DNA of 64,000 bases from Candidatus Marithrix sp. Canyon 246 (GTDB lineage: Bacteria > Pseudomonadota > Gammaproteobacteria > Beggiatoales > Beggiatoaceae): contig NZ_MCBX01000002.1 of NCBI RefSeq assembly GCF_001723685.1, positions 62,001 through 126,000 of the forward strand, written 5' to 3'. Both the position numbers and the translations under genes were made by a program. Of this stretch, positions 28,535 through 63,600 are shown piece after piece. The stretch's first letter is position 1; each line of letters starts with the position of its first letter. Below the pieces are notes generated by a model. It ran no database searches. It had not been told where the DNA came from and was given only the letters and a program-made list of their open reading frames with translations.

Positions 28535-28631
28535 GTAGGGTGGGTAGAGCGAAAGCGATACGAAGTCAGCGAAGCGAAACCCACCAAGGTAGCTAAAATG
28601 GTGGGTTTCGCTTTCGCTCTACCCACCCTAC
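28535..28631. repeat. REP-like palindrome pair (GTAGGGTGGGTAGAGCG family)
   Basis: Forward arm 28535-28585 (GTAGGGTGGGTAGAGCGAA ... GCGAAACCCACC) and reverse arm 28600-28631 (GGTGGGTTTCGC ... ACCCACCCTAC). The forward arm contains an inserted CGATACGAAGTCAGCGAAGC module, also found at 45017-45036. It matches copies flanking the RAYT gene at 36826. Confidence 0.88.
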
Positions 28632-36480: not shown

Positions 36481-36618
36481 ATGTATGGTGGGTTTTGTGA
36501 CGTGGTGGGGTTTTTTGGCGTGGTGGGTTTTGTGACGTGGTGGGTTTTTTGGCGTGGTGGGTTTTTTGGCGTGGTGGGTTTTGTGACGTGGTGGGTTTCG
36601 CTCTCGCTCTACCCACCC
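36481..36618. repeat. Tandem G/T-rich motifs ending in a REP arm
   Basis: About seven copies of GTGGTGGGTTTTGTGAC or its variant with TTTTTGGC, period about 18-20 bases, end in GGTGGGTTTCGCTCTCGCTC and ACCCACCCTAC. This looks like an amplified partial REP half-site. The long reading frame translating this block is an artefact. Confidence 0.85.
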
Positions 36619-36652
36619 TACAAAACTACAAAACAAAACAAAAATTATAAAC

Positions 36653-36800
36653 GTAGGGTGGGTAGAGCGAGAGCGAAACCCACCATTTAGCACAACAAAA
36701 ATTATAAACGTAGGGTGGGTAGAGCGAGAGCGAAACCCACCATTTAGCACAACAAAAATTATAAGCGTAGGGTGGGTAGAGCGAGAGCGAAACCCACCAT
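36653..36800. repeat. Three direct copies of the REP arm (57-bp period)
   Basis: Copies begin at 36653, 36710 and 36767. Each has GTAGGGTGGGTAGAGCGAG and GCGAAACCCACCATTTAG followed by an A/T-rich linker. They lie immediately before the RAYT gene, in the arrangement of REP elements and their transposase. Confidence 0.92.
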
Positions 36801-36825
36801 TTAGTAGATAAGGATAAAATAAATT

Positions 36826-37362
36826 ATGTCCAATTATCGTCGTGTTCGTATTGAAAGTGGATGTTATTTTTTTACTGTTGTTCTTGCTAATCGGAAATCT
36901 CGTTTATTGGTTGAAAATATCGAATATTTACGACAAGCCTTTCGTGAAGTGATGAGAGCGCATCCTTTTAATATTGATGCTATTGTTATTTTACCTGATC
37001 ATCTCCATTGCATTTTCACTTTACCAATTAATGATGATAATTATTCAATGCGTTGGCGACAAATTAAATCAGCATTTTCTCGTAAATTACCTTGTATCGA
37101 ACCACGTTCTGCCAGTCGTATAAAACATGGTGAACGAGGTATTTGGCAACGACGTTTTTGGGAACATGTGATTCGTGATGAACAAGATTATTGTCAACAT
37201 GTGGATTACATCCATTATAATCCTGTAAAGCATGGGTATGTTCAACAGGTTATAGATTGGAAATATTCATCTTTTCACCGTGCTGTTAATTGTGGAATTT
37301 ATCCATATAATTGGGGTGGTGAAGGAGTTAATGAAAAAATTAATGGTGAATATTTGGAATAA
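36826..37362 (+). CDS. REP-associated tyrosine transposase (RAYT)
   Basis: The protein has 178 residues, within the RAYT range. It is a Y1_Tnp HUH nuclease: RRVRIESGCYFFTVVLANR at the start, DHLHCIF (His-Leu-His, residues about 59-62), IKSAFSRKL, and YIHYNPVKHGYV carrying the active Tyr near 130. GIWQRRFWEHVIRDEQDYC is a RAYT signature. RAYTs act on REP palindromes, and the gene sits directly between clusters of one palindrome family. It has no transposon ends of its own visible. Confidence 0.9.
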   Translation: MSNYRRVRIESGCYFFTVVLANRKSRLLVENIEYLRQAFREVMRAHPFNIDAIVILPDHLHCIFTLPINDDNYSMRWRQIKSAFSRKLPCIEPRSASRIKHGERGIWQRRFWEHVIRDEQDYCQHVDYIHYNPVKHGYVQQVIDWKYSSFHRAVNCGIYPYNWGGEGVNEKINGEYLE

Positions 37363-37369
37363 GTGACAT

Positions 37370-37451
37370 GGTGGGTTTCGCTATCGCTCTACCCACCCTA
37401 CGCTTGTAAGTTTTATTTGGTAGGGTGGGTAGAGCGATAGCGAAACCCACC
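37370..37451. repeat. REP-family palindrome pair after the RAYT gene
   Basis: Reverse arm 37370-37401 (GGTGGGTTTCGCTATCGC, ACCCACCCTAC) and forward arm 37420-37451. The pair faces each other across an 18-base spacer. It ends 28 bp before znuC. Its translation forms a spurious N-terminal extension on znuC. Confidence 0.92.
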
Positions 37452-37478
37452 ATTTCGACATTATGGTTTTTTTGTTTT

Positions 37479-58800: not shown

Positions 58801-59922
58801 TTTACAACACTCAATTTTTTCAAAAACAGCAGTTACTGTTTTATCTTTATCCATAGTAATAGTGATTGGGTTTTCATCACCGCTATCAATTTCATCTATT
58901 TCCCAACGTACAAAGTTATAACCTTCATCAGCTCTTGCTTCTAATGTAACTTCAGTATCACATTCATAAGGTTCAGCGGGTGATCTTACTATTCTACCTT
59001 CACCTATGACATTAGTTGTTAATGTGCAAATAGGTGGTGGAATAATAATAATTGGTGGTGGATCAATTAGTTTAAGCCCTTTTGGTGGAGTAGCGCGTTT
59101 GAATAAATTATCTCCCCAACATTCAACACTATTATCGGTTTTTTTGGCACAACTATGATCTGAACCAACACTGATTTCCTTAAACGTTCCAATTGGTGGT
59201 GTTTTTTTACCAGTTTTACCCCAACAAACTATACTGTTATCAGTTGTTCTAATTGCGCACGCATGATTTTGACCAACACTTAATTTGGAAAATTCACCAC
59301 TTGGTGCTGAAGTTTGATCTTCATCATTTTTACCCCAACAATCTAATGTTCCATCAGTTTTTATACCACAAGTAAATTGATAACCTGCTCTTACTAGAGA
59401 AAATGTGCCGCTTGGAGGAATTGTTTCACGATTAGTATTTTCTCCCCAACACTGAATAGTATTAGTAGTAGTTACACCACAACTATGGTTATAACCAGCA
59501 CTTACTTGTGAAAACTTACCGTTAGGAGGATTCATTTTTCCTGTTGTTAGTATATCATTACCCCAACAAATAACAGTATTATCAAATTTGATCGTACAAC
59601 TATGAACATTGCCGCTACTTATTTCTAAAAATTTACCTGTTTGCGCAGTTGCTTGTCCAAAATCATCTCTACCCCAACAAGTCATTATTCCATCATTTTT
59701 AAGGGCACAACTATGATATTTACCTACACTAACTTTGGCAAAATTATTGTCACTAGGTGAGGCACTTTGACCAAAATCATTTTTACCCCAGCAACTTATA
59801 GTCTGATCATCTTTTACAGCACAATTATGCTGCTCGCTGCTACTTAATATTTCTGCTGAAGTATTTGTTGTTACCAACAGTGCAAAAATTGCACTTAGAT
59901 AGCATTTAAAGTCTAGTTTCAT
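55858..59922 (-). CDS. Giant secreted RCC1/InlB/Ig-like repeat protein
   Basis: The protein has 1354 residues. Signal peptide (CYLSAIFALLVTTNTSAE) is followed by seven RCC1-like repeats to about residue 280, each with HSC and CWG (for example HNCAVKDDQTISCWGKNDFG). About five InlB-like repeats follow (EGYNFVRWEIDE, CYSFTGWSGGDCSGNDSNC). Then about seven Ig-like units have the pattern APYTW ... VTYTAP ... VTVTD (residues about 640-1200) and a unique C-terminal domain ends in QPYSVLVK. Cysteine pairs suggest an oxidised extracellular protein, probably adhesive. No sorting motif was seen. Confidence 0.87.
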   Translation of the reverse strand: MKLDFKCYLSAIFALLVTTNTSAEILSSSEQHNCAVKDDQTISCWGKNDFGQSASPSDNNFAKVSVGKYHSCALKNDGIMTCWGRDDFGQATAQTGKFLEISSGNVHSCTIKFDNTVICWGNDILTTGKMNPPNGKFSQVSAGYNHSCGVTTTNTIQCWGENTNRETIPPSGTFSLVRAGYQFTCGIKTDGTLDCWGKNDEDQTSAPSGEFSKLSVGQNHACAIRTTDNSIVCWGKTGKKTPPIGTFKEISVGSDHSCAKKTDNSVECWGDNLFKRATPPKGLKLIDPPPIIIIPPPICTLTTNVIGEGRIVRSPAEPYECDTEVTLEARADEGYNFVRWEIDEIDSGDENPITITMDKDKTVTAVFEKIECCKITIDPSLNGGIISPSKRVFEKDEEVTLTAQPEHCYSFTGWSGGDCSGNDSNCTLIMDNNKTISANFVKGDFSLKLIPAGKGKIISDPAKSSYACDEEVKLTATPDEGYEFARWDGDISGSSNPFSVTMNSNKEIKAIFEPTEVTLLVTPNGNGSVSVSPESDKYFYDQEVILTAEPKNCNKFKQWHGACSGNMPTCEITLKENTSVMAEFEPETFSLTVDVRNCQVILNPHNQLYNCGSTVELSAVANQDFNFVEWRGDASGSNPNISITMTEDKNIIAECITDELNIIPTEEIIPIYTDGKPRLRAKGGVQPYSWSNTGGQLTATTGEMVDFSANVLGNYQVTLTDQSGQTDQVTIEVYSQLSLSPQYVPNLKIKKIQAFAITGGKPPYLVTTSLGFSQSISPDANGIANYNFTAPENPGTVTLTVKDAIAGELSAQINIVPDTKPTVTPSGTVENPLILSLGEDIRLTVKGGVPNYNWTVTAGTLSSTQGKTVTYIAPKASGEQTITVTDNKGNETEVPVKVINELACSPHLTTMILGDKSPITFRAMGGAEPFRWEVEAGTINPPEGAEVNYQPPAQEGEFTVTCKDAQDKSVTPLIRVIKGLSASPTEKLLAIGESAQLQIAGGQAPFTWVAECGDLTKTSGTLVGYTAPQRNGVCEVTVTDALSQAAKIRIQVIGNLIITPIKTVVAIGETVKISAARGTEPYTWSDGKIGRIWTGKFTKVGRHEVIVTDAAGDTGLAIVDIIHNNLGLTPERAFLSRNEILNITVAGGTSPYAWNAEAGTLSSTKGTRVAYIAPDQPGSYNITVRDGRDVQGQVKVIVKADVIDLPSGKPRNDMGSINSNIIVDGIERHEKEILVDAASNIEASFSLEMPNDGQQYKVYAAILWVGLEEQPVILFKTSTQQKLVRSDLSQEFPVYKTAAAGEKVEVVVKDVYNGPLSEYSGHQMVFYVGYAAVGTDVLKGLLFNATQPYSVLVK

Positions 59923-59935
59923 CCTTATTTCTCCG

Positions 59936-60478
59936 TTAATTTAACAGATCTAATGGAGCATAAACTCTAACTTCTAGTTCAATTAGATCTTGAGTTACTT
60001 CATCATACACTTGGATTTTATGTAATCCAGCTACATTTCCAGCTTCAACCTTTAATATACTACTATCTTTGTGTAAATTCAAATAGTCGTTAGGTTCTAG
60101 TTGCCATTTACCGCTGCCACCAATAATCATAAAATTAGTTTTATCATTTATAGGGATATTACGAATACTAGGAGATGCTTCTAATGGACGTAGCACATTA
60201 ATATTTACTTGTATAGTTTGACCAGCGCGATCAAAAAAGCGTACATAATCTTGCATATAGCGTCGCGGGGCACGATAAATAAAGACATTTTCATCTTTAC
60301 TTCTTCTTACATCACCAGTTTTACTTTGCCAAAAAATAGGTGTTAAACCACCTGTTACTGTAAAGTAGTGAGTTTGATGAGGTTTACTCCAAATTTCTTT
60401 GGGCGTGACTGTTAATGCTTGAGCAGAAGTTGTGGAACAAAATAAGATTAATATTAATAATGAAATTATGTTATTCAT
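59936..60478 (-). CDS. Short secreted protein with two Ig-like repeats
   Basis: The protein has 180 residues with a signal peptide (IISLLILILFCSTTSAQA). Two units of the same repeat type are present (HYFTVTGGLTPIFWQSKTGD, IGGSGKWQLEPNDYLN). It lies 13 bp upstream of the giant gene's start and 197 bp downstream of the next repeat gene. Possibly a small partner of the giants. No other domains. Confidence 0.8.
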   Translation of the reverse strand: MNNIISLLILILFCSTTSAQALTVTPKEIWSKPHQTHYFTVTGGLTPIFWQSKTGDVRRSKDENVFIYRAPRRYMQDYVRFFDRAGQTIQVNINVLRPLEASPSIRNIPINDKTNFMIIGGSGKWQLEPNDYLNLHKDSSILKVEAGNVAGLHKIQVYDEVTQDLIELEVRVYAPLDLLN

Positions 60479-60571
60479 AGTTTTTTTTTATAAAGGAATG
60501 ATAGGTAAAAAAAAAGCAGAATCAAGTATTCAGAGGAACATCTTCCCTAAACCTCAACTCTGCTATTTAAG

Positions 60572-60597
60572 TTATCCTCTCCATTAGGAGAGGATAA
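60572..60597. terminator. 11-bp stem hairpin between repeat-protein genes
   Basis: TTATCCTCTCC (60572-60582) pairs with GGAGAGGATAA (60587-60597) across ATTA. It lies between the stop of the window-edge repeat gene (60675) and the next start (60478). No T-run; terminator or processing site. Confidence 0.45.
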
Positions 60598-60624
60598 TAG
60601 TAATACTAAATACTTTCAACTATC

Positions 60625-60657
60625 AGACCTGTCAGGTTTTCAAAACCTGACAGGTCT
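60625..60657. repeat. CCTGACAGG palindrome, full copy (opposite arm order)
   Basis: AGACCTGTCAGGTTTTC and its partner AAAACCTGACAGGTCT, 18 bases after the stop of the window-edge gene. The same palindrome family with arms in the other order. Confidence 0.9.
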
Positions 60658-60674
60658 TTAGACCAAAAGTATTG

Positions 60675-63600
60675 TTATTGTTGAATACCAACTTGATTCA
60701 CAATAATGTTAGCTTCAACGTGCATATATAATTGGCGTTTATCAATAGTGACACCATTTAATGCTTGACCATTAAAGTAGTGTTCTATTGCTAACTCTGC
60801 TTCTTCATCAGAAATGATGCCATCACCATTTAAATCACCGGGCAAACTACCTACAACAATAATGGCTTGTGTACTATCACCATTTTGATCACGGCAAATA
60901 ACTTTATATTGAGTACCTAGTTCTACATCAGTACGTGGGCGTACTACAATATAGTCATCACCTTTCTGAAGTTCTTGTAGATCGGCAAGTGCCCAATCGC
61001 ATTTACCAGCACCACCTAATTGAGTGAAACGTACAGCCACAGATTCGCCCTTATACACTGGATGTGATATAGGTGAAATCATTAAAGGTTGGAACACAGT
61101 CACAGTAGCTTTGCCTTCCAGACCATTTACATCTTCCACCACTACTTCATAAGTACCAGCAGTTTCAGGTGCTGTTATATTAACAATCTCAGTTGTGATA
61201 TAATTATCATCTTCACCTTCTCTGATAGGATTACCATTAAAAGTCCATACATAAGGTGCTGCACCTCGATTAACCATTAAGGTACGAGTTTCACCCGGTG
61301 ACATTGTGATTATTGATGGTGAAATAGTAGGCGTAGAGGGTTCTACAACAGCCTGAATCACAACTTTTTGATCTGAACTATCAGTTACTGTTATATCATA
61401 AGTACCAACACGTTTTGGAGAAGTATAAGTTCCTTTACCGGTATCCTTATCAATTTTTACTTCACCGCTTGCTGCCTCTGCAAAGTAGCCACCAGTACCA
61501 CCTATAACACTAAAAGTAGTTTTAGCATTTCTATCTAAATAGATAGTTTTTTTACTGGCTTTCAATCCTACTTCAACAAAAACGCTGACTGTTACTGATT
61601 GACCTGAATTATCACTAAATGTAATTGTAACATTTTCATCAGCATTCATTTGAGCTGAACTAAATGTAAAGTCTCCAGTTTCGCTAGTAGGGTTTATTGT
61701 ACCTTTTTCACTCACAGCAGTATAAGGTCCTACACCACTAACTACACGAAAAGTGGTAGTTTCATTACGTTTCATATAACGCACATTAGGTGTTACTTGA
61801 AGAGGTTGTGTTACATATACTTTAACTTCAATCTTATTATCCTTACGATCACGGATATTAATTACATCTTCACCCATTATATTAGGTGCAGTATAATAAT
61901 TATAACCAGCATCCTCAGTACGTACATCTTTCATTTCACCTTTACCAGCTTGCCATTCAAAGGCAGGTACACCACCAGTTACAGCAACACGTTTAGTTGC
62001 TCCCGGTTTCAAGTAAATCTCCTGTTTAGTAGCACGTAGTGGTATATCTACATATATAATAGCCTGATATTTTTTACCTTCATTATCAGTAACTGTTACA
62101 GTAACTGTTTCAGAGACTTGAGGTGCTTCATAAGTAACACGATTACCACTTGTAGTTACCTTACCTGCTGTTGTATTCCATTGATAAGGTGCTGTACCAC
62201 CAACTACATCAAATGCTACTGTACCACCTTTATCTAACCAAGCAAATGCAGGACTAATCACAGGTATATTCTTAACTTCAACAGTAACTGAGGCTTGATT
62301 GCCATTAGCATCTTTAGCAGTAACTACATAAGTACCTAAACCTGATGGTGCGGTATAATTACCTTTATCATCAATTTTACCTTGTGTAACAATCCATTCA
62401 ATTGTACCACTACCACCAAATACCGTAAATTGTTTAGTACCATTAGGTGACAATATTGCTTTTTCAGGTGTAATCACCATAGTGCCACTGACTTTGATCT
62501 TAACTTGACCAGTAACACCTTGATTATCTGAAACAATTAAACTAACTTCACCAGCACTACTACCAGCAGTAAAGCGCACACTGTCGCCAGTATTACTATC
62601 TAAGAATCCTTCACCTATTACATTCCAACTATAAGGTGATTCGCCACCAGTAACACTAAAGCTGCTACTACCACCAGCACTAACTTGAGCTTCAGTAGGA
62701 GTTACAATTAATTTAGAACCTACTATAACAGTAGCTTCTACGCTACGACCACTCTTATAGTCTATTGCTGTAATAGTATAGCTACCGCCGCTTGGAGGTG
62801 CAGTGAAAGTACCATTACTATCAATAAAACCACCAGATGCACTCCAGCTTATACCACCTATATTATTAGCAATTGTAAAAGTTTGTGTATCGCTGGGATT
62901 TATAGTTACTTGTTTTGGTGTAATGGATAAAACACCTACTGTTGATAACACATTAACATTAACTGTTGCAGTATTGCCTTTATCATCCGCTACTGTAACT
63001 TCATCAGTACCAGCTAAGTTTGGTGCTGTATAAGTTATACTAGCACCTTTATTAGGTGAAACAGTACCATTTTTAACAGTCCAAGTATAATTTCCACTAC
63101 CACCTTGTGCAGTAAAGGTTTTAGTTTGTCCAACTTGCACCGCAGCAACAGATGGAGTTACCCGTACACCGAGTACACCTGTAGTACCAATTACTTGAAC
63201 ACTTACTGTTGCTTCGTTACCAGCAGTATCTCTAATTGTAATAGTATCTGCGCCTATAGAATTTGGTGCAGTATAAGTAACATTTCCACCAGTGCTAGGA
63301 GATAAAGTACCTTTTGTAGCACTCCAAGTATAACTACCATTACCACCAGTTGCTGTTAATGTTGTAGTACTATTAACATCTACACTTATAGTAGATGGTG
63401 TTACTATAATACCTTCTGCAACTTGTACACATAGTTTTGCAATTGCACCACTGGCATCATGTACAGTAACTTCATAAAGTCCGATATTTGACTCAGGTGT
63501 AAAGCTAATTTTGCTGCCACTAGTAGAAGATAAGCTACCAAAGTTAGCTTCCCATTTATAAGGAGCTGTACCACTAACAATTTCAAAATCAGCAATTTCA

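Follow-up and report, generated by a model that had tools for sequence, protein, structure and literature searches.

The locus is very probably a REPtron: a RAYT gene that occupies one position in two congeners, the source genome (G000) and G001, amid clustered REP hairpins that bear the GTAG tag and are cognate to it. It belongs to a 64,000-nucleotide stretch of the Candidatus Marithrix sp. Canyon 246 genome, called here the window, and is a typical REPtron with a lineage-specific expansion, an arrangement of a known kind. The protein family, the catalytic residues, the hairpin, its dispersal, two RAYT/REP pairings in one genome, the co-divergence of RAYTs with REPs and the presence or absence of REP pairs (REPINs) at individual sites are all observed here.

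The RAYT-A gene (36826 - 37362, plus strand) encodes a 178-residue HUH/Y1 single-strand DNA transposase, identified by profile and PDB matches. The protein scores 29.1 bits against the Pfam Y1_Tnp model PF01797 (cut-off 23) and 205.4 bits against the curated NCBIfam RAYT model NF047646 (cut-off 80). Its sole match among PDB sequences at an E value of 0.001 or better is TnpArep, 4ER8 (E 1.2e-50). The HLH motif at residues 59 - 61 and the catalytic Tyr128 align with the E. coli protein, in agreement with the preliminary description, which had placed an HUH transposase at 36826. Asn132 is likely to be a metal ligand by analogy with N119 of the E. coli protein (PMC6006769). The reading frame and the catalytic residues are intact. 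The gene is preceded by that of a TonB-dependent receptor and followed by znuC/znuB-like genes.

On published features (PMC8266576, PMC6006769), RAYT-A is classed with the E. coli type, group 2 or subclass 2.2. This class is described as having a C-terminal extension of about 20 residues, a short insertion before beta-4 and a REP with an irregular stem. The subclass 2.2 features found here are a retained C-terminal tail, extra residues ahead of the W-Q region (13 more than in E. coli) and an irregular zone in the fold of the cognate REP, REP-A.

REP-A was recognized through the 17-mer GTAGGGTGGGTAGAGCG. The complete element has 33 nucleotides, GTAGGGTGGGTAGAGCGnnnGCGAAACCCACC(A), laid out as GTAG-GGTGGGT-n14-ACCCACC, and the hairpin comprises the whole of it. 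Folded as single-stranded DNA, it forms a 7-bp stem directly after GTAG, followed inward by an irregular zone and a further GC stem of 2 bp, with an energy of -8.1 kcal/mol (z -5.1). The repeats had been described as palindromes; this holds for the full element as a hairpin, but the 17-mer alone is no palindrome.

Members of the REP-A family lie on both sides of the gene, at 36589 - 36799 and 37369 - 37452. The three direct upstream copies with a 57-bp period that had been reported were found on the plus strand at 36653 - 36685, 36710 - 36742 and 36767 - 36799, the last of them 26 nucleotides ahead of the RAYT-A start codon. The earlier upstream inventory missed two further features: an inverted fourth copy (36589 - 36621, minus strand) and a tandem array of 17-bp half-REPs (36486 - 36598, no strand assigned; unit TGGTGGGTTTTGTGACG, 6.6 copies), the last unit of which runs into the inverted copy. 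The facing pair downstream was likewise recovered, at 37369 - 37401 (minus) and 37420 - 37452 (plus), and is a TT dimer with GTAG inside. The second pair noted at 28535 is also present (28535 - 28631), with a long-loop REP-A on the plus strand (28535 - 28586) as its left half and a minus-strand copy (28599 - 28631) as its right half. Its arrangement is different from that of the downstream pair: it is an HH dimer, or REPIN, with GTAG outside.

The chance that these are accidental palindromes, or common terminators that happen to adjoin a transposase unrelated to them, is practically negligible. The repeats are indeed hairpins and lie partly between genes. Chance palindromes are ruled out, however, by the number of 17-mers in the window, eight, all exact with up to three mismatches allowed, against none in 100 shuffles. 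A GTAG-bearing consensus of 33 nucleotides also holds genome-wide, and the reversed control gave no matches. A role as mere terminators was considered and set aside, since the GTAG tag, the copy number and the co-divergence fit REPs.

The preliminary description suggested a genome-wide count of the palindrome, and this count bears out its dispersal. In the source assembly (3.24 Mb, 44 contigs) there are 99 matches to the 17-mer with at most two mismatches, compared to none for the reversed control, and 68 exact matches to the full pattern. The 99 matches fall into 51 clusters (gaps of up to 250 bp), which consist of 21 HH pairs, seven TT pairs, one same-strand pair, 15 singles and seven groups of three to six copies. 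These counts are lower bounds, since many matches are at contig ends: REP-A lies within about 250 bases of the ends of C5, C6, C9, C11, C14, C15, C20, C26, C27, C37 and C42, and the assembly seems to break at the repeats. In a comparison of 21 clusters (11 from G000 and 10 from G001) with mechanically called open reading frames of at least 100 residues, 12 had no overlap, one had 10% and eight overlapped; the frames involved may be spurious, and the overlap count is weak.

Some of the dispersed copies are themselves locally repeated. A module of three REPs is present in two copies 1.83 kb apart, at C40:42349-42466 and C40:44182-44299 of G000. Away from any RAYT match, locus L072 (positions 419 - 778; C11:151618-151977 of G000) contains five direct REP-A copies, mostly with a 70-bp period, and one inverted copy.

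A second RAYT above the cut-off, RAYT-B, is present in the same genome at C6:47923 (L066:1421-1891). It has 157 residues and is 64% identical to RAYT-A. Directly downstream of it is REP-B, GTAGGTTGGGCTGA...AGCCCAAC, which differs from REP-A. Exact full REP-B elements number 44 in G000 and 64 in G001, and they are present in 14 of 95 genomes, three of these outside the family. A REP-B REPIN stands just before RAYT-B in G001 and is absent from G000. The possibility that RAYT-A is a multi-copy insertion sequence of the autonomous IS200/IS605 type was rejected, for the gene is single-copy and its next relative, RAYT-B, has another REP. RAYT-B has no C-terminal tail, the part of the E. coli RAYT that contacts GTAG (PMC8266576), but is nonetheless accompanied by a GTAG REP family of its own, in which the stem is a plain 8 bp.

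The mechanism proposed for the REPtron has several steps. The RAYT would bind the REP in its folded, single-stranded state, would read GTAG and stem bases, and would cut near the hairpin through Tyr128. It would then move or copy REP pairs (REPINs) to other intergenic sites, and the local array would be built by repeated events together with slippage or recombination. Of the RAYT-driven spread claimed earlier, the identity of the RAYT, its possession of its own REPs and their dispersal (99 matches, 68 full elements) stand as observations, but the drive itself is a step that we infer, as are cleavage, transposition and the role of RAYT-A, rather than of a relative, as the maker of the present copies.

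In the congener G001 the RAYT occupies the corresponding position, with a protein 93% identical and flanking DNA about 93% identical. G001 contains neither the 57-bp nor the 17-bp array upstream of the gene, but a single palindrome without GTAG instead, and the upstream array of G000 lies between the arms that form this one palindrome. The downstream TT pair is common to both, with an additional 17-bp half-REP unit beside it in G001. Of the 95 genomes, 45 were searched for the half-REP motif; two of them, G000 and G001, contain it, and at the RAYT-A locus only. Its unit is upstream of the RAYT in G000 (window 36486 - 36598) and downstream in G001 (C9:521184-521210).

The 57-bp and 17-bp arrays look like products of slippage or recombination and need no transposase, and the array beside RAYT-A could have grown in this way. 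It is possible, if unlikely, that the RAYT spread REPs once and is now domesticated or idle, the array having grown by replication slippage at hairpins and unequal recombination. The near identity of the tandem 57-bp and 17-bp units and the position of the upstream array between the arms of the single G001 palindrome agree with this, as does the persistence of REP-A where a close RAYT survives only as fragments. Slippage, however, leaves the 51 separate clusters and the sites occupied in one congener only unexplained. The reading frame and catalytic residues are intact, and the tight match between residue 2 of RAYTs and a REP base, described below, argues for selection on recognition.

The presence or absence of REPINs was examined in 12 REP-A clusters of G001, which hold 22 of its 27 REP-A matches. 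Eight have flanks that match a REP-A cluster locus of G000 and four do not. Two of the eight, L189 and L190, match the same locus, L079, so that at most one of them is orthologous. At four locus pairs (L191/L210, L070/L211, L073/L212 and L097/L213) a REP-A REPIN is present in one congener only and both flanks align; for L070/L211 and L073/L212 the MAFFT alignments are poor at the junction and the statement rests on the BLAST ends. Two more pairs, L193/L215 and L086/L214, align on one flank only and were left out of the clean sites. The clean sites appear to fit the movement of REP pairs as a unit, a comparison in which gain and loss are not distinguished.

Several of the compared sites have features of their own. 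At L097/L213 the REPIN, present only in G000, lies between the copies of a direct repeat (30-odd nucleotides) that is single in G001; this resembles either an extended target duplication or a local tandem duplication. At L186/L209, G001 has a REP-A REPIN where G000 holds the 5' part of a REP-B unit; the right-hand remainder of that unit is common to both genomes, the junction is complex, and this is the sole site with a REP as target. Both flanks of another G001 site, L195, align at 69 - 75% to a REP-A-free part of the window (59581 - 61325), which is an ortholog or a paralog. The flanks of the 28535 pair were sought in G001 and gave no alignment there.

Among 95 genomes the exact full REP-A is present in 16, all of them in the family of the window (16 of 42, against 0 of 53 others). 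The looser 17-mer, with at most two mismatches, is found in 40 of the 95, with 0 - 8 matches each outside the family. A RAYT at least 70% identical to RAYT-A accompanies 16 - 148 full REP-A copies in G000, G001, G002, G034 and G017. In G020 and G033 the RAYT matches are 73 - 74% identical and hold stops, and exact full REP-A elements number 0 and 1, respectively; at L107, taken as the G033 locus, the REP head differs at one stem base. A partial RAYT match with 51% identity is found in G026 (13 full REP-A) and a RAYT with 59% identity in G031 (11). A Fisher test of RAYT against REP-A over the 42 family genomes gave p 0.0085 (table 5, 2, 6, 29), at thresholds (RAYT at least 70% identical, at least five full REP-A) picked after the counts were known.

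The preliminary description expected the palindrome only alongside this RAYT. The confinement of exact REP-A to the family agrees with this, but G035 and G032, with 60 and 32 full copies, contain only fragments of a close RAYT. The same description held that abundance of the palindrome in genomes lacking any related RAYT would speak against it, and such a situation was found in part: G036 and G037 (five full REP-A each) gave no match to the RAYT-A protein at E 1e-10, so that four genomes have REP-A and no intact close RAYT, but the family model places two intact, distant RAYTs in G032, scoring about 100 bits, and a single one in G037. Four of the six genomes G035, G032, G026, G031, G036 and G037 are congeners of G002 or G017. 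Because G035, G032, G036 and G037 are fragmented assemblies from the window's family, and two of them are congeners of close-RAYT carriers, RAYT loss or an assembly gap is in our judgement a better fit than RAYT-independent spread.

A GTAG hairpin lies within 350 nucleotides of 86 of 95 RAYT genes, mostly from proteobacteria, compared to 74 of 1037 control placements, all of which were drawn from loci at least 6 kb long. After the addition of ten loci and the re-reading of one, the count is 96 of 105, with hairpins on both sides in 59. These additions come from 14 loci with a stop on the strand first read, ten of which were read on the other strand while L124, L135, L136 and L171 were left out. 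L039 and L106 are the same contig; both are in the hairpin counts (95 and 105), not in the non-redundant sets. The distances between REP stems follow those between RAYTs (Mantel r 0.491, N 91, 0 of 2000 permutations), also when pairs above 95% identity are removed (r 0.485, N 87, 0 of 5000). L036, which is the same as the window, and L041, L042 and L056, with internal stops, were left out of these pairs. Co-evolution of RAYTs and REPs as such is already known (PMC2817692).

It is highly improbable that the REPs were spread by something else, such as recombination, another Y1 transposase or RNA-mediated copying, and that the RAYT is merely situated among them. The source genome does contain three weaker matches to the RAYT model, and REP-A is present without an intact close RAYT in G035 and in G032, the latter with its two distant intact RAYTs. 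Against such a spreader stand the two RAYTs of one genome, each with its own REP family, as well as RAYT/REP co-divergence across 87 non-redundant pairs and the residue-to-base rule given below.

The REPtron can be compared with several known systems. RAYT genes are reported from about a quarter of bacterial species (PMC8266576), and one third of the detected RAYTs lie directly in a BIME (Nunvar 2010, PMC2817692). HH, TT and HT dimers and repeat-specific REPtrons have been described (PMC3733652). A close likeness is to E. coli TnpArep/RAYT with its Y/Z REPs (group 2, subclass 2.2; 4ER8), which shares with RAYT-A the HUH motif and Tyr, the W-Q-x-R-F-W-E-H region and the C-terminal tail. The Y/Z REPs, like REP-A, have a GTAG tag and a stem with an irregular zone and an inner stem (PMC8266576), and the E. 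coli rayT also lies in REP arrays (PMC2817692). The E. coli enzyme cuts single-stranded REP at CT (Corneloup 2021, PMC8266576). The present system differs in the 13 additional residues ahead of the W-Q region, in the stem sequence of REP-A and in the 17-bp half-REP array; the E. coli RAYT, moreover, breaks the residue-2 rule (S with C).

The RAYTs of Stenotrophomonas and Pseudomonas (group 3, subclass 2.5) are similar in being flanked by cognate REPs, in having several RAYT/REP families per genome, in their inverted REP doublets and in co-divergence (PMC2817692, PMC3686654). Group 3 REPs, however, are short near-perfect palindromes (PMC8266576), whereas REP-A combines a stem of 7 bp with an irregular zone, and its arms are 14 nucleotides apart. 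Marinomonas MWYL1 has two REPtrons in its genome, Ma and Mb, with REPs near the gene, as here, but one is of group 2 and the other of group 3 (PMC8266576), whereas the present pair of RAYTs is 64% identical, though RAYT-B has no tail. A literature search for REP or RAYT in Beggiatoa or Thiomargarita returned no paper on the subject by title among the matches listed.

The locus supplies a pair of RAYTs that are related to each other and go with separate REP families within a single genome, and there is also, at L043, a RAYT 68% identical with T in place of S at residue 2 and a REP head that differs at stem base 2 only. In the screen of the 87 non-redundant pairs, RAYT columns were compared with stem bases after removal of overall distance (640 tests, sd 0.087). 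The three top correlations were 0.54 for residue 97 with stem base 6, 0.535 for residue 2 with stem base 2 and 0.48 for residue 97 with stem base 3; the next was 0.355. Some N-terminal gaps in the screen came from clipped matches, and start codons were re-read for both the discovery and the hold-out sets. The codon for residue 2 of RAYT-A, a Ser, is at 36829 - 36831 (plus strand).

The rule for residue 2 assigns G at stem base 2 of the REP to S or P, A to T, T to a deletion and C to V or R. The rules were fixed before the hold-out loci were fetched. The sample comprised 186 RAYTs (105 in the discovery set and 81 read from 88 hold-out loci), of which 149 have a GTAG hairpin (loop up to 20, within 350 nucleotides). 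There are 144 non-redundant pairs, eight of them without a residue-2 class, leaving 136 callable, and 124 of these follow the rule; E. coli is among the 12 exceptions. In the discovery set (89 pairs) the agreement is 33/34 for P-G, 15/17 for S-G, 17/17 for T-A, 10/11 for deletion-T and 5/5 for V/R-C. In the hold-out (55 pairs) it is 14/17, 15/18, 5/5, 6/8 and, for V-C, 4/4, in total 44 of 52 callable, compared to 29 of 52 if G is always chosen; the rule is correct for 15 of the 23 non-G pairs. Some hold-out RAYTs share genomes with the discovery set, so the two are sets of separate genes and not separate organisms throughout. The rule gives 101 of 110 with upstream REPs only and 95 of 105 with REPs after the stop codon only. 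The search for upstream REPs ended at the start codon, so that an overlap with codon 2 would be invisible in it; the downstream count is independent of this.

Shared descent, simulated as inheritance along the tree, does not account for the rule. Residue class and stem base 2 have a mutual information of 1.157 bits. Base evolution was simulated 1000 times along a RAYT tree from which the rule columns had been removed; the mean was 0.10 and the largest value 0.39, so none reached the observed one. For the control stems the observed value was reached in 22 (stem 3), 585 (stem 5), 1 (stem 6) and 29 (stem 7) simulations of 1000; thus the residue-2 classes carry some signal for stems 3, 6 and 7, but the information is far lower (0.03 - 0.24 bits for the control stems). 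Of 37 closest disjoint pairs whose members belong to different classes and are at least 55% identical, 35 have unlike bases at stem position 2, with 33 matching the rule exactly; in this identity range, 4 of 27 same-class pairs have unlike bases there. Pairs of stems with base 2 as their single difference number 324, and in 270 of them the class changes as well; when the single difference lies at another base, it does so in 30 of 866. Such pairs have sequences in common and are therefore non-independent. An independent-pairs tree test found 1 - 3 pairs on starred branches in the output listed, where 0.05 is unreachable, and speaks neither for nor against the rule. The residue-2 rule is a correlation in aligned sequences, one that is strong after correction for descent.

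Residue 97 behaves in a comparable way. In the hold-out, Ser97 (codon 97, window 37114 - 37116) occurs with G at stem 6 in 25 of 27 cases and with T at stem 3 in 22 of 27. Val97 occurs with A at stem 6 in 26 of 26 cases of the discovery set, and the hold-out has one Val case. Ser97 of RAYT-A sits in a stretch that is absent from the E. coli protein. Stem bases T11 and G32 are important for the E. coli enzyme (PMC8266576); in the numbering used here, T11 corresponds to stem position 7, and position 3 is the partner of G32.

Ser, Pro, Thr and Val at position 2 allow removal of the initiator Met. Residue 2 is mostly one of these four and is therefore perhaps the mature N-terminus of the protein. 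It is fairly likely that the residue after the initiator Met specifies pair 2 of the REP stem and that Ser97, a residue of the inserted loop ahead of the W-Q region, follows stem 6 and perhaps stem 3, in which case a single-residue change should re-target the RAYT; this is proposed from sequence covariation. The residue-2 rule was not found in the excerpts of PMC8266576, PMC6006769, PMC3686654 and PMC2817692, nor in the titles among the matches listed, and the 2012 structure paper (doi 10.1093/nar/gks741) may bear on it.

The way in which a RAYT selects its cognate REP is understood only in part. Taken by itself the locus is ordinary, and the residue-2 rule is the part that deserves the attention of specialists. 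It predicts the outcome of single-residue swaps, making both the specificity of RAYTs and the birth of REP families testable with short DNA oligonucleotides. If the rule is true, a residue change that re-targets a RAYT from one REP family to another would be one step in the emergence of new RAYT/REP families.
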